20,955 nucleotides of DNA from a virus: positions 1 through 20,955 of IMG/VR virus record IMGVR_UViG_3300019776_000872; one strand, written 5' to 3'. The notes under the pieces were generated by a model. The model searched no databases. It was not told the DNA's origin and worked only from the letters and a program-made list of their open reading frames with translations. This document shows, piece by piece, positions 2,382 to 20,332 of the stretch. The translations under genes and the position numbers were made by a program. The number at the start of each line of letters is the position of its first letter. Position 1 is the stretch's first letter.

Positions 2382-3497
2382 TTACTCGTGTTTTTCGGGC
2401 ATTCCCGCACCCGCGTCAGAGGTGCGGGGAATGTTGTTCGCGGCTTGTACCATATCGAGGTAGCCTGTCATCAGTTTTGATGAGGCTGAGCCGCCCAGAA
2501 GCTCGCGATTCGCGGCGCGCGTGTAGAGCTCCGCCTGGGCCAGCGTCGTCCATCCCCACATTGCCATCAGCTCGTGCGCCGATGCCCCGGCCTGTGCCGC
2601 GAGCGTCGAGCCGAGCTTGCGCAAGCCATGCGCCCGGCCGGGCACGCCAGCCTCCTTGCAGCGGGCGCGGAACCAGTTGCCGAAGCTCGCGCCGCTGGCC
2701 CAGGGCGTGCCCTTGTCGGACAGCAGGAACGCGAGATCGCCTGTTTCGGTGGCAGTGATCGCCTCGATGAGCGGCGGCAGCGCCGTGAAGGTGACCAGCA
2801 CGCCCGAGGATTGCGCCGTCTTGCCGGGCCGGAACCGGATGGTGCCGCCGCGCACATGCTGGCGGCCGAGCTGCACCGCATCGGAGATGCGGAAGCCGGT
2901 AAAGAGCAGGATGCGGAGCGCAAGGTTGGCCATGGTGCCGAGCGGGTGCCGCGCCTCGTAGGCCATGACATCCTCGATCTGCCACATGGTGCGGCCACCC
3001 TTCAGCGGCTTGACATAGTCGACGGCTTTCGCCGGATCGGAATCGATGATGCCGCGCTCTTTGGCGAAGGCGAAGAGCGGCTTGATGGCCTTGAGCCAGT
3101 TGTTGGCGGGGTGCCCCTTGCCGGTGGCCCGTTTGTCGCGCCCGGCGATGATGGACGCCTCGTCGATGCGACGCAGCTGCAGGGTGCCCTGCTTTTCGAC
3201 CAGCTGGCGATAGGCCGCGTCGCGCCGGCGGCGCGTGATCTCATCGAGGCCGCGCCAGTGCAGGCTTTCCTTATAGGCGGCCACCACCCAGGCGACACTG
3301 CCCGGCACGCTGGCCGGGCCCATGCCCGGCTGCGGTACCGGATCACCCCTGAGCACGGCCTGATAGGCCGCCTCGAATTCGGGCGAGCCGTAATCGGGCA
3401 AGCGGATGCGCTTGCCCTTGCCCACGCGATAGTAGCAGACGCGGGTACCGTGGCGGTTGAGTTCGCGGGTGACGTTGGGGGGCAGCCTCGTGCGCAT
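2382..3497 (-). CDS. int: Tyrosine site-specific integrase
   Basis: From ATG 3497 the protein is 371 aa. Residues 1-60 resemble an arm-binding/N-terminal domain (RELNRHGTRVCYYR), about 65-170 a SAM-like core-binding domain, and about 175-340 the catalytic domain. The full catalytic set is visible: Arg203 (TGFRISD), Lys226 (RPGKTAQ), His290-x-x-Arg293 (HGLRK), Trp316 in the His/Trp position, and nucleophile Tyr325 (AELYTRA). The frame stays open to 3635, but that extension is Pro/Arg-rich, overlaps the upstream gene and lacks a clear ribosome site; 3497 lies just after that gene's stop. It is the last gene of the P_L operon. It integrates and, with an excisionase not recognised here, excises the phage. 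Confidence 0.9.
   Translation of the reverse strand: MRTRLPPNVTRELNRHGTRVCYYRVGKGKRIRLPDYGSPEFEAAYQAVLRGDPVPQPGMGPASVPGSVAWVVAAYKESLHWRGLDEITRRRRDAAYRQLVEKQGTLQLRRIDEASIIAGRDKRATGKGHPANNWLKAIKPLFAFAKERGIIDSDPAKAVDYVKPLKGGRTMWQIEDVMAYEARHPLGTMANLALRILLFTGFRISDAVQLGRQHVRGGTIRFRPGKTAQSSGVLVTFTALPPLIEAITATETGDLAFLLSDKGTPWASGASFGNWFRARCKEAGVPGRAHGLRKLGSTLAAQAGASAHELMAMWGWTTLAQAELYTRAANRELLGGSASSKLMTGYLDMVQAANNIPRTSDAGAGMPEKHE
2401..2433. repeat. Inverted repeat in the integrase 3' end
   Basis: ATTCCCGCACC at 2401-2411 faces GGTGCGGGGAAT at 2421-2432 across a 9-nt loop, complementary apart from one extra G. The same box occurs at 2249-2258 and, inverted, at 2295-2304. It may be integrase arm sites or an RNA hairpin at the end of the int transcript. 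No T-tract follows in the direction of int transcription, so it does not look like an intrinsic terminator. Confidence 0.5.
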
Positions 3498-6251: not shown

Positions 6252-6977
6252 TCAAAACGAGTAGAGGTCACCGTCCGTCAAAACCTTGTGCCAGACAAGC
6301 CCCGGCCTGATGATGAACTGAATGGTTGCCGGGGGGTTGAACTGCTCGACCACAAGAGTGGTGCTCGTGATCTTCACCAGGCGCTTGATGAAGGCCCGGT
6401 TTTCGCCATTGTTGCTGTCCGGCTCCTGCACCACGATGTAGTCGCCGCCGCGCGGCTTTTTGTGCGGGTGGCAGAATATCAGGTCGCCGGGCTCAAAGCG
6501 GGGATACATCGAATCACCCTCGACATAGAGCGCATAAGCATCCTTCACGCCAAAGAGGCCCGGCGGGCGGCGAACATACTCGATCACGTCGGTACTCAAC
6601 TGGAACGCGCCTTGCCCCAATTCGGAGCCGGCTGCGGTACCTAACGTCGGCAAGTCTTTCGGAAGGTTGAATGCAATAGGTACCTTCACCTCTGGTGCGA
6701 ACCGCACCTCAGAGGGGTAGCCGGGCGTCGCTGAGATGCTGTCCGCTTCCGCCGCCGCCTGATCATGCCCGGTGAGCAGGTATTGCTCGGATACACTCAA
6801 CGCCTGAGCCAGCTTGATCAGCGTGTCGCCGCGCGGGTGGTCGGTGACGCCGGTGATGATGTTGCGGATCGTGCTTTCGGGCACGCCGGAGCTTTCGGCG
6901 AGGGCGCGGCGCGACCGGCCAGATTTCTCGATGAGTTCGTTGAGGCGCGAACCCAATGAATTGCTTGGCTTTTCCAT
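6252..6977 (-). CDS. cI: CI-like repressor (HTH-XRE plus S24 LexA-like protease)
   Basis: A 241-aa protein. The XRE helix-turn-helix occupies about residues 8-68 (SRRALAESSGVPESTIRNII). The autocleavage site is Ala116-Gly117 (GTAAGSELG). The S24 catalytic pair is Ser156 (EGDSMYPRFEPGD) and Lys198 (FIKRLVKI). It is therefore an SOS-inducible repressor cut by RecA-stimulated self-cleavage. ATG 6977 lies 4 bases from an operator (6981-6996), so autoregulation is likely. There is no Shine-Dalgarno before the ATG, which suggests a leaderless message as for lambda cI; no clear maintenance promoter could be read. It forms an operon with the zinc-ribbon gene. Confidence 0.95.
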   Translation of the reverse strand: MEKPSNSLGSRLNELIEKSGRSRRALAESSGVPESTIRNIITGVTDHPRGDTLIKLAQALSVSEQYLLTGHDQAAAEADSISATPGYPSEVRFAPEVKVPIAFNLPKDLPTLGTAAGSELGQGAFQLSTDVIEYVRRPPGLFGVKDAYALYVEGDSMYPRFEPGDLIFCHPHKKPRGGDYIVVQEPDSNNGENRAFIKRLVKITSTTLVVEQFNPPATIQFIIRPGLVWHKVLTDGDLYSF

Positions 6978-6980
6978 GAC

Positions 6981-6996
6981 GCGCCAAACTTAGCGC
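6981..6996. promoter_or_regulatory. Operator next to the cI start
   Basis: The sequence is GCGCCAAACTTAGCGC, a GCGC-N8-GCGC site differing from O_R1 only in the central bases. It sits immediately upstream of the cI ATG, suited to negative autoregulation. Confidence 0.7.
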
Positions 6997-7031
6997 ACAT
7001 CAATGCGCAGATGGTGCGCTGAATTTGGCTT
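6993..7031. promoter_or_regulatory. Further operator half-sites between cI and P_R
   Basis: GCGCACATCAATGCGC at 6993-7008 shares its first half-site with the preceding operator. A GCGC follows at 7016-7019, beginning a degenerate site whose other half is GGCTT (7016-7031). GCGC boxes thus start at 6981, 6993, 7005 and 7016, about every 12 bases. Confidence 0.5.
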
Positions 7032-7059
7032 GACAGTGCGCCATAAATAGCGCGATCCA
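7030..7059 (+). promoter_or_regulatory. P_R early promoter with operator O_R1 (7038-7053)
   Basis: A perfect TTGACA at 7030-7035 is the -35 box. About 18 bases on, GATCCA (7054-7059) is the weak best candidate for -10. O_R1 (GCGCCATAAATAGCGC, 7038-7053) fills the spacer and is identical to O_L1 in inverted orientation. Transcription should start at about 7065, at the first base of the next ATG. Confidence 0.65.
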
Positions 7060-7065
7060 TGGCGC

Positions 7066-7341
7066 ATGATGACCCTCACCGAACAGCTTCTCGATGTTTG
7101 CGACCGGTACTGCGCCCATGTCGGCAGGGCCCGCAGTCGCGTTTCGACCCGCGTCTTTGGCAGCGGTGACCGCCTCGACGGCATCGCCGCCGGCAAGGAC
7201 CTGAACACCCGCAGCTTCGAGCGCGCCATGGCGTGGTTCTCGCAGAACTGGCCGGCCGATCTCGCGTGGCCCGAAGACATCGCACGGCCAGTGGCGGCGC
7301 AGGCCCGCCCGCTCCGCGCCGATGAAAGGATGGAAGCATGA
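7066..7341 (+). CDS. Cro-position DNA-binding protein
   Basis: A 91-aa protein (ATG at 7066 or 7069). The segments LTEQLLDVCDRYCAHVG, SRVSTRVFGSGDRLDGIAAG and TRSFERAMAWFSQNWP match a small helix-turn-helix type seen beside repressors in alphaproteobacterial prophages. It is the first rightward gene, divergent from cI across the operators, so it probably acts as the Cro-like competitor. No ribosome site precedes the ATG, and the predicted start of transcription coincides with it, pointing to leaderless translation. The repressor function is inferred from position and fold. Confidence 0.7.
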   Translation: MMTLTEQLLDVCDRYCAHVGRARSRVSTRVFGSGDRLDGIAAGKDLNTRSFERAMAWFSQNWPADLAWPEDIARPVAAQARPLRADERMEA

Positions 7342-7439
7342 GCGAGTGGCAAATCATCGCGGGATGCGCCGCGCTTATCTGGCTGGCCTTGGCCTGGTGC
7401 TGCTGGGCGCTGTTCGCCATCAACAAGGGCGAGGAGTGA
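7338..7439 (+). CDS. 33-aa membrane peptide
   Basis: This frame begins at ATG 7338, overlapping the previous stop by ATGA, and ends with TGA at 7437-7439. It encodes a Trp/Cys-rich hydrophobic helix (IIAGCAALIWLALAWCCWAL) with a short polar tail (FAINKGEE). GAGGAG at its 3' end serves the next gene. The overlap and the one-helix design support a real product; the function is unknown. Confidence 0.6.
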   Translation: MSEWQIIAGCAALIWLALAWCCWALFAINKGEE

Positions 7440-7442
7440 GCG

Positions 7443-7760
7443 ATGCAGCGGCAATCGCCTCTCGTCACCTTCCGTCAGAACCTCGGGCACCTGCAGGCCA
7501 AGCAGGCGCTTTCGCCCGCGCCGCGGTTCGAGGCGTTTGTCACTGCGCTTGCCGGTGACCGGGTGAGCTTTCTGGAAACCGAGCGGGGACGGCAGCTCAG
7601 CGCGATGATGGACGCGCAGCGGCAGCGGCGCGAGGCGAAGTGGCGCGTCGAGGCGCGGGTGCAAAAACTGTGGTGGCCGATGAAGAGCATCGCCTGGTGG
7701 TTCAAGGACCGGCAGCTCTGCGACGCCCTCGCCGCAGCCAAGGAGCGTGGCGAATGGTGA
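7443..7760 (+). CDS. Hypothetical basic early protein
   Basis: A 105-aa protein with a good ribosome site (GAGGAG, 7431-7436). It is basic and aromatic-rich in its second half (RREAKWRVEARVQKLWWPM, then KSIAWWFKDRQLCDALAAA). No family was recognised. It is the last gene of the first rightward cluster and converges on the minus-strand gene 6 bases away. Confidence 0.55.
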   Translation: MQRQSPLVTFRQNLGHLQAKQALSPAPRFEAFVTALAGDRVSFLETERGRQLSAMMDAQRQRREAKWRVEARVQKLWWPMKSIAWWFKDRQLCDALAAAKERGEW

Positions 7761-7765
7761 TGCGC

Positions 7766-8086
7766 TCACAGCAGCCGCGTCCGCAGCAGGTGCAGCGTGT
7801 CGCCGACGATTTCGGCCGCGATGCTCTCCGCCTCGGCCGCATCGTAGGGGCCGAGTTTGGGCAGCGTTTCGGCGATGGGCGCGGCCGACCAATCGGCAGC
7901 GAGGGCGAAGTTTTCGAGCGTGCGCCTCAAACGCTCGCTGCCCGGAAGCTCCGCATCGAGCGGGCCAGGCATGGCGAGTTCTGCCGCGAGGCTGACCGCG
8001 AGGCGCACCAGCACATCGTTGGCGATGGCATGCGCCACATAGAACGTCGCGTGGCTGGGCAGCTCGCCCGTCTCGTCATCGCTCAT
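7766..8086 (-). CDS. Minus-strand hypothetical protein inside the right operon
   Basis: From ATG 8086 this is a 106-aa acidic, helical protein (SHATFYVAHAIANDVLVRLA, then AESIAAEIVGDTLHLLRTRLL). GGAGGG nine bases upstream decides the start. The frame remains open to an ATG at 8356. That extension is low-complexity, Gly/Ala/Glu-rich and weaker in third-position GC, and it overlaps an array of perfect inverted repeats, so I do not include it. The gene faces the rightward early operon, so P_R read-through would produce antisense RNA to it. Function unknown. Confidence 0.55.
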   Translation of the reverse strand: MSDDETGELPSHATFYVAHAIANDVLVRLAVSLAAELAMPGPLDAELPGSERLRRTLENFALAADWSAAPIAETLPKLGPYDAAEAESIAAEIVGDTLHLLRTRLL

Positions 8087-8094
8087 TTTGTCGC

Positions 8095-8331
8095 GCCCTC
8101 CGTTCGGGCCACTGAAACCGACGCGGGTTTCCGCGTCCAGCTTTTCGATTGCGCGTCCTCCCTCGCGCGATCCACCAGCCGCAACCTCCTGGCTGGTGAC
8201 TGGCCCGGCGCCACTTTCCCCCTTCCCGGTGGCGCCGGGCATCTTCTCTTCAGCTTTGTCGGAGTTGAGCGAAACGGCTCCGGCAGAGGGCTGCGGCGGG
8301 CGCCCCGCCTCTTGGCGACCCGCCGCAGCCT
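8095..8331 (+). ncRNA. Candidate structured RNA: six to seven tandem stem-loops
   Basis: Back-to-back inverted repeats lie at: 8095-8098/8106-8109 (4 bp); 8120-8126/8131-8137 (7 bp, 4-nt loop); 8148-8155/8164-8171 (8 bp); 8173-8180/8191-8198 (8 bp); 8203-8214/8229-8240 (12 bp perfect); 8258-8264/8278-8284 (7 bp); and 8289-8300/8319-8330 (12 bp perfect, extended by CGCC/GGCG inside). The wobble pairs (8150:8169, 8259:8283, 8288:8331) are G-U only in plus-strand RNA and would be A-C in minus-strand RNA. This suggests a rightward transcript. The element lies between the Cro cluster and cII, where lambda has nutR/tR1. It may be an antitermination site, a terminator cluster or an independent ncRNA. 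This is the content of the 8087-8386 gap. Confidence 0.5.
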
Positions 8332-8386
8332 CACCCTTCGGAAACACTCTGGTCATTCGAAAATCTCGTCATCAGGCAATGGCGGC

Positions 8387-8446
8387 ACCATGCCCGGCAT
8401 GGTTGCGCGGCGTCATGCCGTAAATCGGGGGCACGTCACGGCATGA
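8387..8446. promoter_or_regulatory. CATGCC/GGCATG palindrome cluster before the CII-like gene
   Basis: A perfect 17-bp palindrome ACCATGCCCGGCATGGT lies at 8387-8403. A second inverted repeat, TCATGCCGT (8413-8421) with ACGGCATGA (8438-8446), overlaps the ATG of the next gene. Four equivalent half-sites in 60 bases suggest operator sites, perhaps for the CII-like protein itself. No convincing -35/-10 pair was found here. Confidence 0.5.
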
Positions 8447-8928
8447 AGGCGAGGCAGTTTCCGGCAAGCGTCTATTCGGGGCTGAAGGCGACGCTGCGCG
8501 CCATGGTGAGCCAGAGCTTCGGCGGCCAGAAGGTGGCGGCAGCCGCGACCCGCGTCGAGCAGGGGATGATCTCGGACTATTGCAGCACCAATGACGAGCA
8601 CGCCGAAAAGCACGTGCCGGCCGATGTGCTGCTCGACCTGATGGCGGCATCGGGCGACACGCGCGTGCTGCGCTATCTCTGCGAGCAGGTGAACTGTCTG
8701 CTGGTGCCGCTGCCGACCGGTGGCACCGGCGAGATCGGCGACCGGATGGGGCGCAGCGCCAAGGAATTCGGCGACGTGCTGGTGCGGATTTCCGAAGCGA
8801 TGGCCGATGGCGTGATGAGCCCGGCCGAAGCCGAGCAGGCGCTGCGCGAAATCCTCGAGGCGATGCTGCAACTGAGCGCGCTCGCCGAAGCGGTGAAGGC
8901 CGCGCGCGACAAAGGCGAGGGCAAGTGA
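8443..8928 (+). CDS. CII-like phage regulatory protein (CP76 type)
   Basis: A 161-aa protein. The N-terminal half reads as the helix-turn-helix of the phage regulatory CII/CP76 family: YSGLKATLRAMVSQSFGG, then QKVAAAATRVEQGMISDYCS, then HVPADVLLDLMAASGDTRVLR. The C-terminal half is a helical region (EFGDVLVRISEAMADGVMS) probably for oligomerisation. In this family the protein acts as a transcriptional regulator in the lysis-lysogeny decision. A palindrome overlaps its start codon, so self-control of transcription or translation is likely. Its ribosome site is poor. The next gene overlaps by TGATG. Confidence 0.75.
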   Translation: MKARQFPASVYSGLKATLRAMVSQSFGGQKVAAAATRVEQGMISDYCSTNDEHAEKHVPADVLLDLMAASGDTRVLRYLCEQVNCLLVPLPTGGTGEIGDRMGRSAKEFGDVLVRISEAMADGVMSPAEAEQALREILEAMLQLSALAEAVKAARDKGEGK

Positions 8929-9203: not shown

Positions 9204-10367
9204 ATGGGCGTGAATGTGGCTTTACCTCCCGGATATCTCGACACCATCAGCCTCTGCACCGGCGGCGGCGGGCTCGACCTCGCCCTTGAGCTGGCAATCG
9301 CAGGTGCTCGCAGCGTCTGCATGGTGGAGAGGGAAGCCTTCGCCGTCGCGCACCTGGTTGCAGCGATGCGAGCGGGTCGACTGGCTCCGTGCCCTGTGTG
9401 GAGCGATGCCCGCACCTTCGACGGCCGCCCATGGCGCGGCCTTGTGGATGGCGTCATTGGCGGCATCCCGTGCCAGCCGCATTCCCTCGCCGGGCGGAAG
9501 CGCGGCAGCCTCGACGGGCGCGACCTGTGGAGCACGGCCCGCAAGCTCATCGTGCAGGCCCGGCCATGGTTCGTGCTCATCGAAAATGTCGGCGGCATGC
9601 TCGCGGCGGGGGCTGACGAAATCGCTGGCGCCGAGCGGGTTTGGCGAGACTTACAGAAGCTGGGTTTTGCGGTTGAGGGCGGATTGTTCACGGCGGCAGA
9701 AGTTGGCGCGAGCCATCAGCGCGAGCGGCTTTTCATCCTCGGAATCCATGACGGGCTCGGGCTCCAGCGGGAGCTGGCCGACCGCGACGGCGAACGACTG
9801 GAAGGGCTCGGGCCCGACGTTGGAGCGCGCGGACGGCAAGATGCGCGGCGACCGGCTGGACTACGCGACGGAACAGATCTGGAGCACGCCGCGCTCGTCG
9901 GGCGGGGAGAAGGGTGGGCCGAACCAGAGTTTCGGGGCGGGCGGCATACCGCTGCCGGCGCAAGCAGGCCAGTGGTACACGCCAAATGTCCCGAATGGCG
10001 GACGGAAGCTGGCGGACAGCAACGGCGCGCGGAACCGGACATCGGGGCGGCAGGAAGGGTCGAAGCATCACGACGGGGTGACGCTGAACGACGCGATCAT
10101 CCTCTTTTCCCTCCCGGCCCCGGAGACATGGCCGGATGGCGGGAAACCCTCGCCCGAGCGCCGCAGCTTGAACCCGCTGTTCGTCGAGTGGCTGATGGGC
10201 TGGCCGCCGGGCTGGACGCTGCTGGCGCTGCCCGCGTCGATCGGCTCCGCATGCTCGGAAACGGCGTTGTGCCTCTGGAAGGCGCGTATGCGATCCGCAC
10301 TCTGCTCGCTCCCCTCGCCGATCGCGGCTCCGCCCGCGCAGCTCAGCTTCTTGGAGGCGTGAGGTGA
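9204..10367 (+). CDS. C5-cytosine DNA methyltransferase
   Basis: A 387-aa protein. Motifs in order: SAM-binding SLCTGGGGLDLALE (about 16-29), PCQ with catalytic Cys90 (GGIPCQPHSLAG), ENV at 127-129 (VLIENVGGM), QRERLF at 172-177, and motif X LGNGVVPLEGAYAIRTL near 351-367. It should transfer a methyl group to C5 of cytosine. Residues about 185-300, the target-recognition part, are low-complexity and Arg/Gly-rich, because the same DNA also encodes a protein-like sequence in another frame (see 9748-10362). The TGA lies 5 bases before the next ATG. It probably protects phage DNA against restriction or alters host methylation. Confidence 0.85.
   Translation: MGVNVALPPGYLDTISLCTGGGGLDLALELAIAGARSVCMVEREAFAVAHLVAAMRAGRLAPCPVWSDARTFDGRPWRGLVDGVIGGIPCQPHSLAGRKRGSLDGRDLWSTARKLIVQARPWFVLIENVGGMLAAGADEIAGAERVWRDLQKLGFAVEGGLFTAAEVGASHQRERLFILGIHDGLGLQRELADRDGERLEGLGPDVGARGRQDARRPAGLRDGTDLEHAALVGRGEGWAEPEFRGGRHTAAGASRPVVHAKCPEWRTEAGGQQRRAEPDIGAAGRVEASRRGDAERRDHPLFPPGPGDMAGWRETLARAPQLEPAVRRVADGLAAGLDAAGAARVDRLRMLGNGVVPLEGAYAIRTLLAPLADRGSARAAQLLGGVR
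9748..10362 (+). CDS. Overprinted frame: phage methyltransferase C-terminal-like protein
   Basis: This second frame inside the methyltransferase gene is open from 9214 to 10362. From ATG 9748 (204 aa) it stops looking like a shadow and reads as a known phage sequence type: WPTATANDWKGSG, IWSTPRSSGGEKGGPNQSF, YTPNVPNGGRKLADSNG, SLNPLFVEWLMGWPPGWT and LWKARMRSALCSL. Such WPTP…LNPxFVEWLMGWPxGWT segments form the C-terminal part of many phage C5 methyltransferases. The main frame over the same bases ends in an equally good motif X. Either both frames are used, or the gene descends from a frame change. The start codon and any expression mechanism are unproven, and the ribosome site is weak. Confidence 0.45.
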   Translation: MTGSGSSGSWPTATANDWKGSGPTLERADGKMRGDRLDYATEQIWSTPRSSGGEKGGPNQSFGAGGIPLPAQAGQWYTPNVPNGGRKLADSNGARNRTSGRQEGSKHHDGVTLNDAIILFSLPAPETWPDGGKPSPERRSLNPLFVEWLMGWPPGWTLLALPASIGSACSETALCLWKARMRSALCSLPSPIAAPPAQLSFLEA

Positions 10368-10372
10368 GCGCG

Positions 10373-13063
10373 ATGAGCTATGCCGACTTCCTCGCAGCAA
10401 AGATGGTGTTTGCGCCGGAAGGCGGGTTCGATGTCGCCGATGACGAGATCAACCCGCTGCTGAAGCCGCACCAGAAGGCCATTGTCCGCTGGGCCTGCAA
10501 GGGCGGGCGCCGGGCGATCTTCGCGGCATTCGGGCTCGGCAAAAGCTTCATGCAGCTTGAAGTGCTGCGGCTCGTGAAGGTGAAGACCGGGCGCTCGGTG
10601 CTGCAGGTGGCGCCGCTCGGCGTTCGGGTCGAACTCCTGGCGGATGCGCGCACGCTCTCGACTGCCGATCACGTCGACATAACGGACGCGCAACGCCGCG
10701 ATCACGCCAGGTGGCTCGAACGGCATCCGGAAGGCGTGATCGATCTCCGCTTCGTCCGCCGCACGAGCGAGATCGAGCATTTGGTCGATGGCTCTGGCAT
10801 ACGCCAACCGCAGCCGGGCCACTATCTCGCCAACTACGAGAGCATCCGCGACGGCAAGCTCGACCTGAGGCTCTTCGGGGGCGCGTCGCTCGACGAGGCC
10901 TCGGTGCTGCGCGGCTTCGGCGGCACCAAGACGTTCCGCGAGTTCATGAAGCTCTTCGACGGCATGGCCTACAAGTTCGTCGCCACGGCGACGCCGAGCC
11001 CGAACGAATATATCGAGCTGCTCGCCTATTCGGCCTTCCTCGAAGTGATGGATGTCGGGCAGGCGAAGACGCGGTTCTTCAAGCGCAACAGTGAGAAGGC
11101 CGACACGCTCACCATCCACCCGCACAAGGAACGCGAGTTCTGGCTGTGGGTGGCGAGCTGGGGCCTGTTCGTCGAAAAGCCGTCCGATCTCGGGTTCTCG
11201 GACGAGGGCTACACGCTGCCGCCGCTCGAAGTGCACTGGCACGAGCTGCCGAGCAACCACCTGACGGCGGGCGAGGAGAAATCCGGGCAGGCGCGGTTGT
11301 TGAAGAATGCCGCAGCCTCGCTGCCCGACGCGGCGCGGGAGAAGCGCGAAAGCCTCGACGCGCGCATCGGCAAGCTGATGGAGCTGAGGGCGCTTGACCC
11401 TGAGGCGCACCGCGTCATCTGGCACGACCTCGAGGCGGAGCGGCACGCGATCGAGAGGGCGGTACCGGGCATCAAGTCGGTGTGGGGATCGCAGGATCTC
11501 GATGAGCGCGAGAAGCGGCTCACCGATTTTGCCTACGGGCGCCTGCCCGAGCTTTCGACCAAACCGGTGATTGCCGGGCAGGGCTGCAATTTCCAGCGGT
11601 ACTGCGCCTGGGAGATTTTCGTCGGCATCGGCCACAAGTTCAACGACCTGATCCAGGCGGTGCACCGGACCTACCGGTTCCTGCAGCGGCGGCCGGTGCG
11701 GATCGACCTGATCTACACCGAAGCCGAGCGCTCCATCCGCGACAGCATCGAAGCCAAGTGGCGGCGCCACGAGGAGCAGAGGGCGATCATGACCGGCATC
11801 ATTCGCGAGTACGGGCTTTCAGCTGTCGCCATGGCGGCGACGCTCAACCGAACGATGGATATCGAGCGGGTGGAGGTAGCGGGGCCAATTCTTGCCCCAC
11901 GCTCTGGCGAAGGCGCCAACCGCTTAGGGGTCCCCAGCTTCGTTCTGGTCAATAACGACTGCGTCGAGGAAGTGCGGCTGATGGCGGACAGCTCGGTCGA
12001 CCTCATCGTCACCTCGATCCCGTTCTCGACGCAGTACGAGTACTCGCCCAGCTACCGCGACTTCGGCCATACCGATGACGACCGGCACTTCTGGTCGCAG
12101 ATGGATTTCCTCATTCCGCAGCTCTTGCGCGTGCTGGCGCCGGGCCGGATCGCGATGATCCACGTCAAGGATCGCATCGTGCCGGGCGGGCTGAGCGGGC
12201 TCGGCTTCCAGACCGTGTCGCCCTTCTCGGACGATTGCGTGGCGCGGTTCCGACAGCATGGATGGGCGTTCCTCAGCCGCATCACGGTGACTACCGACGT
12301 GGTGCGCGAGAACAACCAGACCTATCGGCTCGGCTGGACCGAGCAGTGCAAGGATGGCAGCCGGATGGGCAATGGTTTGCCCGAATACTGCCTGATCTTC
12401 CGCAAGCCGCCTTCGGACAACTCGAACGGCTATGCCGACAAGCCCGTGAAGAAGGAAAAGCGTGCCTGGGATGCCGGCAAGTGGACCACCGGAGGCTATA
12501 GCCGCGGTCGGTGGCAGCTCGATGCGCATGGCTATCACCGATCGAGCGGCAACAGGCTGCTGACGCCCGAAGAGCTGCGCGGGCTCGATGCGAGCGTGAT
12601 CTACAAGCTGTGGAAGAAGTTCAGCCTCGGCGCGGTCTACGATTTCGAGCATCACGTCTATGTCGCCGAGGGCCTCGAGGCGGCGTCGGCCCTGCCGAGC
12701 GACTTCATGTTGCTGCCGCCGCACTCGCCGCACGAGGCGGTGTGGACCGACGTGACGCGCATGCTGTCGATGAACACGCTGCAGGCCGCACAAGGGCGCG
12801 AGCTGCACCTCTGCCCGCTGCAGTTCGACATCATCGACCGGGCGATCACGCAATATTCCGAGCCGGGCGACGTGGTGTTCGACCCGTTCGGCGGGGTGAT
12901 GAGCGTGCCCTACCGTGCGCTGAAGCATGGCCGAAAGGGCCGGGCAGTGGAACTCAACCCGGCCTATTTCCGCGACGGCTGCGCCCATGTGGCGCGCATG
13001 GCCGAAGAGCTGGCGACGCCCGACCTGTTCGGGCTGCTCGACGTTGAGGAACAGGCGGCATGA
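10373..13063 (+). CDS. SF2 helicase - DNA methyltransferase fusion
   Basis: From ATG 10373 (GAGGTGA upstream; a GTG lies at 10364) the protein is 896 aa. The N-terminal half is an SF2/SNF2-like ATPase: Walker A FGLGKS near 53-58, Walker B LDEAS near 173-177, TATPSPN near 205, and a C-terminal lobe with motif VI QAVHRTYRF. The C-terminal third is a beta-class amino-methyltransferase, with motif IV DLIVTSIPF first and SAM motif I VVFDPFGGVMS near the end. The catalytic tetrapeptide is S-I-P-F, not the common S/D-P-P-Y/F. It probably methylates N4 of cytosine or N6 of adenine while translocating on DNA. No nuclease domain is visible, so it is more likely protective than restrictive. Confidence 0.85.
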   Translation: MSYADFLAAKMVFAPEGGFDVADDEINPLLKPHQKAIVRWACKGGRRAIFAAFGLGKSFMQLEVLRLVKVKTGRSVLQVAPLGVRVELLADARTLSTADHVDITDAQRRDHARWLERHPEGVIDLRFVRRTSEIEHLVDGSGIRQPQPGHYLANYESIRDGKLDLRLFGGASLDEASVLRGFGGTKTFREFMKLFDGMAYKFVATATPSPNEYIELLAYSAFLEVMDVGQAKTRFFKRNSEKADTLTIHPHKEREFWLWVASWGLFVEKPSDLGFSDEGYTLPPLEVHWHELPSNHLTAGEEKSGQARLLKNAAASLPDAAREKRESLDARIGKLMELRALDPEAHRVIWHDLEAERHAIERAVPGIKSVWGSQDLDEREKRLTDFAYGRLPELSTKPVIAGQGCNFQRYCAWEIFVGIGHKFNDLIQAVHRTYRFLQRRPVRIDLIYTEAERSIRDSIEAKWRRHEEQRAIMTGIIREYGLSAVAMAATLNRTMDIERVEVAGPILAPRSGEGANRLGVPSFVLVNNDCVEEVRLMADSSVDLIVTSIPFSTQYEYSPSYRDFGHTDDDRHFWSQMDFLIPQLLRVLAPGRIAMIHVKDRIVPGGLSGLGFQTVSPFSDDCVARFRQHGWAFLSRITVTTDVVRENNQTYRLGWTEQCKDGSRMGNGLPEYCLIFRKPPSDNSNGYADKPVKKEKRAWDAGKWTTGGYSRGRWQLDAHGYHRSSGNRLLTPEELRGLDASVIYKLWKKFSLGAVYDFEHHVYVAEGLEAASALPSDFMLLPPHSPHEAVWTDVTRMLSMNTLQAAQGRELHLCPLQFDIIDRAITQYSEPGDVVFDPFGGVMSVPYRALKHGRKGRAVELNPAYFRDGCAHVARMAEELATPDLFGLLDVEEQAA

Positions 13064-17957: not shown

Positions 17958-18084
17958 GTTTCCCTCCAGAATTGCACAACAGAGACAAGCAAAGGCGGCG
18001 GCGAGAGTCGAGCCCCAGCCTGCTTGTTGACAGCCGAGGACATCGCGCGCATGTTGAGCCTGCTTCGGGAGACCGGAGCCGGGG

Positions 18085-18230
18085 TTCGAAGCCCGCTAGT
18101 TCTCAGGCGCCCAAACCGCGCCGCGACCCGTTCGCCGGGCGCGGTTTCGTTATGTCGGGGCGTAGTGGGGAGCCGCAAGGCTCGCCGATTCCTGAGATCG
18201 GTCTTCGAACCCGCTACGCCTCGGCGCCCA
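18085..18230 (+). repeat. Imperfect direct repeat of about 28 bases
   Basis: 18085-18113 and 18204-18230 share TTCGAA, CCCGCTA, CTC and GGCGCCCA in the same order with small gaps. TTCGAA occurs a third time at 18232-18237. The two copies flank the hairpin at 18113-18147 and the structured leader, so the region may have grown by duplication. Confidence 0.5.
18113..18150 (+). terminator. Terminator-like hairpin
   Basis: AAACCGCGCC (18113-18122) pairs perfectly with GGCGCGGTTT (18138-18147) across a 15-nt loop and is followed by CGTT. The T-run is short, so termination may be partial. It would stop rightward transcripts coming from the gcrA block, through the antisense side of the HIRAN-like gene. 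Confidence 0.5.
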
Positions 18231-18275
18231 GTTCGAAGGGGGTTCCGAGGTCAAACGCGATCTCAGGAGACCCAG
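18155..18275 (+). promoter_or_regulatory. Structured leader with a ribosome-site-sequestering alternative fold
   Basis: Fold 1 is a three-way junction. It is closed by 18156-18165 with 18214-18223 (10 bp, one G-U). It holds hairpin 18170-18183 (GAGCC/GGCTC, GCAA tetraloop) and hairpin 18185-18201 (CCGAT/ATCGG, 7-nt loop). Fold 2 pairs CCTGAGATCG (18191-18200) with CGATCTCAGG (18258-18267), burying part of the AGGAG ribosome site of the gene at 18276, with an inner 8-bp helix 18203-18210/18231-18238. The two folds cannot coexist. The G-U pair fits only plus-strand RNA. The 17958-18275 gap holds this, the hairpin above and the repeat. Confidence 0.5.
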
Positions 18276-18488
18276 ATGGGCAAGATTGATTTCCTGCGCC
18301 GCAGCGCGCAACCCCCGCACCCCCGACAGCTGATCGAAGACGAAATCGAGCGCCTGATCGGCCTGCTCGATGCGCTCGACGGCGATGCCGATTTCGAGCC
18401 AGACGAAGAGGGCGAGCCCTGGCTTGCGAGCTTTGGCGGCTACCACGATGTCGGCGACGACCGCGAAGAAGACGAGGTGGCGGCATGA
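18276..18488 (+). CDS. Small acidic phage protein
   Basis: The open frame extends far upstream, but ATG 18276 with AGGAGA six bases before it is the clear start. The 70-aa protein begins MGKIDFLRRSAQPPHPRQLI, has a helix EDEIERLIGLLDALDG, and an acidic tail (DFEPDEEGEPW … DDREEDEVAA). I associate this composition with small prophage proteins of Hyphomicrobiales, function unknown. Acidic proteins of this size can be DNA mimics, which is speculative here. It is coupled to the next gene by ATGA. Confidence 0.65.
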   Translation: MGKIDFLRRSAQPPHPRQLIEDEIERLIGLLDALDGDADFEPDEEGEPWLASFGGYHDVGDDREEDEVAA

Positions 18489-19234
18489 GCGAGGTGGTGA
18501 TTTTCCACGGCGACGCGATCCATGCGGAGCGGGTGGATGGCCGCGTGATCGTGGCGGTGAAGCCGATCGTGGAGCGGCTGGGGATCGACTGGAACGGGCA
18601 GTTTCAGCGCATGAAGCGAGACGAGGTGCTGGAGCAAGGTATGTGTGTAATAACCATACCTACGCCCGGTGGCGTCCAAGACGCCGTGGGCCTGCCGCTC
18701 GAGCTGCTGCCGGGTTTCCTGTTCGGGATTTCGGCCGAGCGGGTGAGCGACCCCGCGGCGCGGGCCGCGATCATTGCCTACAAGCGCGAGTGCCACGAGG
18801 TGCTGTTCCGGCACTTTTTCGGGCCGCGCGAGGCGCCGCAGATTGACTGGGAAGAGGCGCGGGAGAAGCTGGCGCTGGTGCGCGAGCTGCGGCTGACGCA
18901 TGGCAAGGCGGCGGCGGCGAAGCTGTGGGCCGATCTCGGGTTGCCGCTGCCCGAAGAGGCGCCCGCGCCGACGCGGGCCGACGCCACGCAAGGCGTTGAT
19001 TTCGTGCGGTTGTTCCTGAAAGAGCGCACGGCGGAAGCGCCGGGCGGACGGGTAAGCGCGACCGAGCTTTACCGCGCCTTCTGCGCCTGGTGCACCGAGA
19101 CCAACAGCCCGGTGATGACGATGACGGCGTTCGGGCTTTGCGCGCGGCGCTGCGGGCTGCAGAAGAGCAAGATGCAGACGGTGTACTATTTCGGCATCCG
19201 CATCCTGCACCTGAAGGAACTGGTGGAGGGCTGA
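18485..19234 (+). CDS. Antirepressor-like protein with D5-type C-terminal module
   Basis: A 249-aa protein. Residues 1-115 follow the P22 antirepressor N-terminal domain pattern: VIVAVKPIVERLGIDWNGQF, RMKRDE, LELLPGFLFGIS, IAYKRECHEVLF. A helical linker follows. The last 75 residues (VSATELYRAFCAWC … TAFG … KMQTVYYFGIRI) align by eye with the C-terminus of this phage's SF3 helicase. Antirepressors neutralise phage repressors; here the second module might instead target replication. A structured leader lies upstream of its operon. No terminator follows directly. Confidence 0.7.
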   Translation: MSEVVIFHGDAIHAERVDGRVIVAVKPIVERLGIDWNGQFQRMKRDEVLEQGMCVITIPTPGGVQDAVGLPLELLPGFLFGISAERVSDPAARAAIIAYKRECHEVLFRHFFGPREAPQIDWEEAREKLALVRELRLTHGKAAAAKLWADLGLPLPEEAPAPTRADATQGVDFVRLFLKERTAEAPGGRVSATELYRAFCAWCTETNSPVMTMTAFGLCARRCGLQKSKMQTVYYFGIRILHLKELVEG

Positions 19235-19645: not shown

Positions 19646-20332
19646 ATGAAGATGGCAGCGACAAAAGCGATGTGGCGGGACGGTGACGGCAAGGTGCATT
19701 GCGAGGATCGGGCGGCGATAAGGCGGGTGGAGGCGGTAGGCCGGTGGCGGGAGCGCAATGCCGAACAGCTTGCCGGTCTCGCCTGGTATGCGCTGGTGAT
19801 CCGCGGCGGGCGGGAAGCCGAAGTCGAGGCCATTCTCGAGCGGCGCGGGTTTTGCGCCGTGGTGCCGAGCTGGCGCGAAGAGCGGCGGGTGCATCGGCGC
19901 GCCAAGGCCAAGCGCGAGGTGCGGGTACCGATTGCGCGGGGCTATGTGCTGGTAGGCTTCGATGCGGCGCAGATGGGCGCCGGGCTGCCGCCCTGGCACG
20001 CGGTGTTCGATATTTCGATGATTGCGGGCGTGGTGGGGCTGGATGACAGCGGCCGGGCCTGGCGGCTGCAGGGCAAGCAGGTGGCGGCATTCCTGCTGGA
20101 TAACGACATGGTGCGCCCGAAGGCGGCTGTCGAGGTGGCATCAGCTGGCGATATCGAGCTGGGCGACGTGGTGACCATCATCCACGGGCCGTTCAGCGGG
20201 TTCCGCGCGCCGGTGATTGCGGTGGCGCCGGACAAGGTGCGGGTGCTGGTGAAGCTGTTCGGCCATGACAGCGAGATGGATATCGACGGGCAATGGATTG
20301 CGCGTGCAATGCGGGCGCACGCGACGGCTTGA
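19646..20332 (+). CDS. NusG/RfaH-like transcription antiterminator
   Basis: A 228-aa protein. After about 40 residues comes an NGN domain: AGLAWYALVIRGGREAEVEA, ILERRGFCAVVPSWREERR, then RVPIARGYVLVGF. A KOW motif follows at about 170-210 (ELGDVVTIIHGPFSGFRAPV, then VRVLVKLFGHD). NusG paralogues bind the RNA polymerase clamp and make it processive. Here the gene directly precedes strong RNA hairpins, an intrinsic terminator and the packaging end of the genome. A role as the late-gene switch, functionally like lambda Q, is therefore likely but inferred. An ATG lies two codons downstream as an alternative start. Confidence 0.8.
   Translation: MKMAATKAMWRDGDGKVHCEDRAAIRRVEAVGRWRERNAEQLAGLAWYALVIRGGREAEVEAILERRGFCAVVPSWREERRVHRRAKAKREVRVPIARGYVLVGFDAAQMGAGLPPWHAVFDISMIAGVVGLDDSGRAWRLQGKQVAAFLLDNDMVRPKAAVEVASAGDIELGDVVTIIHGPFSGFRAPVIAVAPDKVRVLVKLFGHDSEMDIDGQWIARAMRAHATA

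Follow-up and report, generated by a model that had tools for sequence, protein, structure and literature searches.

Tandem hairpins with anti-Shine-Dalgarno-type loops upstream of cII in a lambda-like phage control region and in related phages

What kind of element is a row of seven hairpins standing directly before cII in a phage control region, and on which strand, if either, would it work as RNA? The question is raised by IMG/VR virus record IMGVR_UViG_3300019776_000872, whose 20,955 bases are the window analysed here. The control region of the window is lambda-like, with a CI repressor gene on the minus strand (6252-6977), a cro-position gene (7066-7341; PHROG match phrog_7669), the hairpin array on the plus strand (8095-8331) and cII (8443-8928; PF06892, phrog_101). 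The original prediction had set the array between the Cro cluster and cII, which is right, with the amendment that orf105 (7443-7760) and the leftward gene orf106 (7766-8086, minus strand) share that interval. orf106 has neither a Pfam nor a PHROG match, and a scan of genome contigs for it gave no match; among viral contigs it has a single relative, in L002, at 60% identity and in the same gene order, where the homologue starts at an internal methionine and homology ends at that point.

Within 8095-8331 all seven of the proposed hairpins were confirmed. H1 (8095-8109) is a stem of 4 bp, GCCC-UCCGUUC-GGGC, with CCCUCCG running across stem and loop; it is weak by itself, and the strand opposite carries the likely ribosome-binding site (GGAGG) of leftward orf106. 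H2 (8120-8137) has 7 bp, GACGCGG-GUUU-CCGCGUC. H3 (8147-8172; 9 bp including one G-U) and H4 (8173-8198; eight Watson-Crick pairs, nine in the fold, with the loop (GC)AACCUCC(U)) follow one another with no gap, and the linker ACUG (8199-8202), which runs into GCCCGG and is like the ACUGGCCGGG-type linkers of relatives, leads on to the GC-rich H5 (8203-8240; 12 Watson-Crick pairs, 13 in the fold). On the 3' side of H5 lies a pyrimidine-rich tail, AUCUUCUCUUC (8241-8251), which is possibly a weak terminator tail, and a 5-bp closing helix (8112-8116/8249-8253), predicted from the single sequence, would enclose H2-H5. H6 (8254-8288) and H7 (8289-8330; 12 bp plus an inner 4-bp helix at 8301-8317) again adjoin without a gap; the sizes first given for the stems need correction at H6, which has 14 bp including four G-U pairs and not 7. 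The loops of H3 (UCCUCCCU), H4 (AACCUCCU) and H5 (the C-rich UUUCCCCCUUCCCG, with CCCCC in place of CCUCC) are anti-Shine-Dalgarno (aSD) sequences or near variants of them, displayed in succession over 8147-8240, and neither H6, with the loop AGCGAAA, nor H7 has such a loop.

The fold is specific to one strand. On the plus strand 8087-8356 reaches -145 kcal/mol (z -8.01), as good as none of 200 dinucleotide shuffles, against a z of -3.56 for the complement, and when 200-nt windows along the entire record were compared, the one at 8101 was the top plus-strand structure, with the window of a C4 RNA narrowly second. The argument for the plus strand from G-U pairs, already made in the original prediction, holds and is stronger than it was put there, H6 alone supplying four. 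Codon-level selection on the minus frame at 8087-8356 had been named as the finding that would overturn an RNA; we checked codon-position GC and found no codon signature in that frame. The frame is open over 196 codons through array and orf106, and in the extension codon-position GC is 0.72/0.61/0.69, compared with 0.74/0.48/0.84 in orf106, the other genes of the window also differing from the extension. Given the strand-specific folding, the codon-position GC and the internal start of the L002 homologue, the array is best read as a plus-strand RNA. The folding, the G-U pairs, the lack of a minus-strand codon signature and the recurrence described below together give good support to the claim that the phage RNA runs rightward. 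A CsrB/RsmZ-like reading, suggested by GGA loops on the complement, was rejected on z-score and G-U bias. A promoter scan restricted to the sigma-70 type found none near the array. There is no second copy of the array within the record, and no close relatives of it were found in viral, phage or plasmid collections.

Does anything of the kind stand before cII in other phages? Loci were gathered from viral contigs by their cII homologues, 92 cII loci being dereplicated to 52 clusters, and the count covered hairpins whose loop contains CCUCC or CUCCC, up to 400 nt upstream of cII and on the cII-sense strand. Such hairpins occur in 13.5 of the 52 clusters, where 0.52 would be expected and the maximum of 200,000 simulations was 5; on the antisense strand they occur in 0 of 52. 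In raw terms the sense-strand rate is 0.754/kb over the 400 nt that precede cII and 0.022/kb elsewhere, a local background taken from the few kilobases around cII, and the raw antisense count is one hairpin, directly at the cII start. The element as defined is absent from about three quarters of cII clusters; where present it precedes cII by 70-300 nt, in the orientation of that gene. When no motif was pre-selected, CCUCC, CUCCC and UCCUC emerged as the commonest loop 5-mers (13, 12 and 11 loci; 12-14-fold enriched), CTCCTCC was found upstream of cII at 10 loci in sense and at 0 in antisense, and other YC-rich words (CCACC, CACCC) had no sense-strand excess. Pairs of aSD hairpins no more than 25 nt apart number 11 upstream in sense, some of them from near-identical phages, 0 upstream in antisense and 8 on both strands of the remainder of 636 kb. 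A plasmid prophage of Sphingomonas paeninsulae, which turned up only after the counting rule was set, has two aSD hairpins 162-90 nt before its cII. That the plus-strand CCUCC might be nothing other than leftward ribosome-binding sites was rejected, this being possible for only 4 of 28 hairpins.

Since the relatives were picked via cII, other phage contexts are under-sampled. A search of viral contigs for the module CTCCTCCC-N(8-30)-ACTGGCYGG was uninformative, so short a pattern often matching by chance; among the 80 loci listed, cII was present in two, both already known. Tandem aSD hairpins were seen elsewhere in L005 (Aurantimonas phage AmM-1; about 2934-3010, minus), L105 (549-682, minus) and L024 (about 2603-2650, plus). 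Those of L005 and L105 are on the strand opposite cII, which suggests an RNA that is not restricted to the cII position.

Across the relatives the stems vary and the loops and the strand are conserved. Tandem-module MAFFT alignments were poor because stem lengths differ. Between close relatives, stem substitutions mostly keep the pairing, chiefly via G-U. Three pairs of hairpin A have changed between L025 and L026, each retaining its pairing by way of G-U, and in hairpin B a double change has turned one G-C pair into A-U; the pattern is similar in L027/L028, L031/L032 and, for hairpin B, L036/L037, and two double changes separate L074 from L082 when these are aligned by eye. Pairing is lost in the first hairpin of L036/L037, at one pair in L038/L039 and in apical extension pairs. 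In the stems of aSD hairpins G-U outnumbers A-C by 31 to 13 (p 0.005), as against 132:142 in control hairpins elsewhere. These pair-keeping changes were seen in relatives that are not close to the window's own array.

The layout also recurs. Its usual order is an aSD hairpin or a CUCCUCCC stretch, a linker near ACUGGCCGGG and a long GC-rich hairpin whose loop is often aSD, the counterpart in the window being H4, ACUG, H5 and AUCUUCUCUUC. In eight relatives (L030, L038, L041, L046, L052, L067, L074 and L082) a U-rich tail follows 3' of the last hairpin, and several elements have no U tract. In the window a further dyad, UCAUGCCGU-loop-ACGGCAUGA (8413-8446, plus), has the cII AUG in its 3' arm and GGGGG (8427-8431) in its loop, and the cII start likewise falls in the 3' arm of a hairpin, with a mostly G-rich loop, in L025, L026, L029, L032, L038 and L039. 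The cII-start dyads of the window and relatives follow the pattern UCAYNGCGUAA...UUACGCCAUGA; one arm contains the start codon, and the loop is often G-rich. Such a dyad might be a hairpin that acts on translation, an operator in the DNA or a site of the pRE type. On the minus strand of L027, L028, L038-L041, L046 and L052 a small conserved leftward ORF (with an M-x-RF-x-x-Y-x-PS-x-AL-type start) begins just upstream of cII and runs antisense to the hairpin element; MTRFSNDQSVSEG*, 13 codons at 8372 on the minus strand of the window, is a possible remnant of it.

Tandem hairpins with a CCUCC core in aSD loops and with variable stems are what characterises the cuckoo RNAs, and this description suits H3-H5, the arrangement being tandem in several relatives too. 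In a permissive scan the Rfam model of CcsR1 matched 8167-8243 (plus), which is H4-H5, over its full length with 29.1 bits, under the gathering cut-off of 65.3, the E-value being 2e-5 for a search of 281 bases and 0.0015 for one of the whole window. L010 too has a CcsR1 match in the corresponding position before cII (E 0.84 over 52 kb), and in ten further relatives the model had no match at E<=10. The second family, alpha-r14 (RF02344), has no match in the window, and in other phage loci it scores below threshold (L105 35.9 bits, L005 24.2 bits). The cuckoo loop 9-mer CCUCCUCCC appears in full in no loop of the window and in several relatives, e.g. L029, L030 and L031, and no DUF1127 gene was matched among the six flanking proteins scanned; the other marks of cuckoo RNAs are a promoter of the stress (RpoH) type and maturation by RNase E to stable sRNAs. 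Because its score falls below the Rfam cut-off, and it has neither DUF1127 linkage nor the exact 9-mer, the array was not filed as a cuckoo member. To judge from sequence and predicted fold, it is best read as a phage version of a known aSD-loop RNA type.

With CcsR1-4 of Rhodobacter sphaeroides (RF02791) the array thus shares tandem GC-rich hairpins and C-rich aSD loops and, for CcsR1, sequence similarity to H4-H5 across the whole model. It departs from them in scoring below the curated cut-off, in the absence of a DUF1127 gene from the flanking proteins scanned, in having three aSD-type loops within seven hairpins and in its setting, which is the early region of a phage before cII and not a chromosomal stress operon. 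The source of CcsR RNAs is the 3' UTR of a transcript that encodes a protein (PMC8625941), and their processing is treated in PMC10253847. In alpha-r14 RNAs every loop has the aSD motif, the stems are hypervariable and the number of hairpins varies (PMC7143759; PMC3927594 section 2.7). It is in hairpin number, hypervariable stems and aSD loops that the family (NfeR1/Smr14C2, SmelA075/SmelA099) resembles the phage element, but its members are described as multicopy sRNAs of Rhizobiales genomes and the window itself is unmatched.

The account that we favour, and hold to be somewhat better than an even chance, is that the array is a structured aSD-loop RNA of the early rightward transcript which pairs with Shine-Dalgarno sequences and lowers translation. 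The array would lie on a transcript of the pR type, after the cro cluster and before cII, and its core, H3-H4-H5, would hold out C-rich aSD loops on tandem stable stems, an architecture like that of the alphaproteobacterial cuckoo RNAs (CcsR, alpha-r14) and of the elements in the same place in related phages. We infer that such an RNA is transcribed and processed, working as a 3'-UTR-type or processed small RNA, and that its loops pair with the Shine-Dalgarno sequences of phage or host mRNAs so that less is translated, such pairing being the simplest role for exposed aSD loops. Since several relatives have a U-rich tail on the last hairpin, the element may also end some cro transcripts before cII, at the tR1 position. 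It probably acts in trans. A phage's own aSD loops match its own cII ribosome-binding site no better than those of other phages do (permutation p 0.45); a specific cII target is therefore unsupported, and this lack of co-adaptation fits a general trans-acting aSD RNA, or a generic cis effect.

A cis effect of a more particular kind would make the aSD hairpins part of the cII leader, where they would govern the translation of CII from the very RNA that carries them; their loops could, for instance, pair with a GGGGG or GGAGG displayed by the loop of the cII-start hairpin. The shared strand and the 70-300 nt between element and cII would suit it, as would the cII starts in the 3' arms of hairpins with mostly G-rich loops in the window and six relatives, and in the window the CCCCC of H5 faces the GGGGG at 8427-8431. 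We nevertheless think it unlikely, because loops and cII sites are not co-adapted, and because the U-rich, terminator-like tails between element and cII in several relatives suggest that the transcript often ends there. Those tails, present after the last hairpin in eight relatives, speak in turn for a termination element equivalent to tR1, be it an intrinsic terminator whose hairpins are decorated or a site where Rho loads via C-rich loops. The map position is that of lambda tR1, the plus-strand loops are C-rich (27 C to 5 G), and the sole terminator-like site of 6900-8600 is H5 with its tail; yet one site is not above the 1.4 expected by chance, so that termination at H5 is possible only, and the U tract is missing in several elements. 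Rho prefers C-rich unstructured RNA, but the array offers short loops on very stable stems, and Rho loading becomes less likely because the loop signal is the aSD word itself, CCUCC/CUCCC, other YC-rich words being without sense-strand excess. As an account of the whole element, termination thus appears rather doubtful, somewhat more so than control in cis; the terminator cluster named in the original prediction may survive as a part of the element, through the U-rich tails of several relatives, and not as its explanation.

The original prediction had also offered a put-like antitermination element and a P4-like immunity RNA. Lambda nutR/tR1 with the cII leader has the same map position between cro and cII and a rightward RNA, and acts via boxA/boxB, N and Rho, but what is conserved in the phage array is the aSD loops; HK022 put RNA, which acts on RNA polymerase, likewise comprises at least two stable hairpins in an early phage transcript, and the Rfam scan of the array region gave no match related to it. 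The phage encodes a NusG-like protein (NusG and KOW domains; 19646-20332, plus), from its domains a candidate processive antitermination factor, which together with the map position could be counted in favour of a protein-binding antitermination or immunity RNA, whether HK022 put-like, nut-like or P4-like. Against this, base-pairing loops of cuckoo (CcsR/alpha-r14) type on variable stems point to RNA-RNA contact, and the only match to an RNA of this class is the C4 antisense RNA (RF01695) at 18148-18231, a phage regulatory RNA that likewise has hairpins and has no match at 8095-8331; the reading seems to us improbable. Fainter still is the case for a leftward coding sequence in the minus frame 8087-8356, with hairpins arising by compositional chance. 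The frame stays open for its 196 codons through orf106, and in several relatives a leftward ORF that looks conserved lies on the strand opposite the element, but codon-position GC in the extension is unlike that of genes, the L002 homologue begins internally with homology stopping there, and the G-U bias and the difference in z-score favour the plus strand. That the array is a mosaic of the host's mobile palindromic repeats, the main alternative at the outset, is to our minds very unlikely. High GC and numerous palindromes would accommodate it, but the array is single-copy in the record and unmatched in phage or plasmid collections, and the relatives combine variable stems with constant loops and a constant strand.

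If the favoured reading of an aSD-loop RNA is true, temperate phages of a large group that has received little study have a host-like base-pairing RNA at the heart of their genetic switch, the cuckoo RNAs gain a setting in phages, which might be their origin or a rival to them, and many sequenced prophages should make a plus-strand aSD-loop RNA between cro and cII. We would go further only tentatively, and with less than even confidence, in supposing that alphaproteobacterial temperate phages have repeatedly put a cuckoo-type aSD RNA in the early transcript between cro and cII, where it would damp translation broadly while lysis or lysogeny is decided and be tied to the host's aSD stress-RNA network by mimicry or by competition for mRNA. 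The literature searched holds no report of an aSD element before cII, and the recurrent phage element appears to be unreported; the key cuckoo-RNA papers are outside that literature and earlier notice is possible.

Some features of the window and of the cII collection stand apart from the array. The C4 antisense RNA (68.6 bits, plus strand) is preceded by an isrK-like match of 35.2 bits, below cut-off, and the two belong to a c4/ant-like module in which the RNA part (18062-18231, plus) is followed by a P22_AR_N antirepressor-type gene (18485-19234, plus). An 899-aa protein (10364-13063, plus) has a C-terminal N6/N4 DNA methylase domain after a long N-terminal part that matches no Pfam family. 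Among the cII homologues, those of L210 (Synechococcus phage MinM1) and L211 (Nostoc phage Nsp-JY10), both listed as cyanophages, are like those of alphaproteobacterial-type phages.
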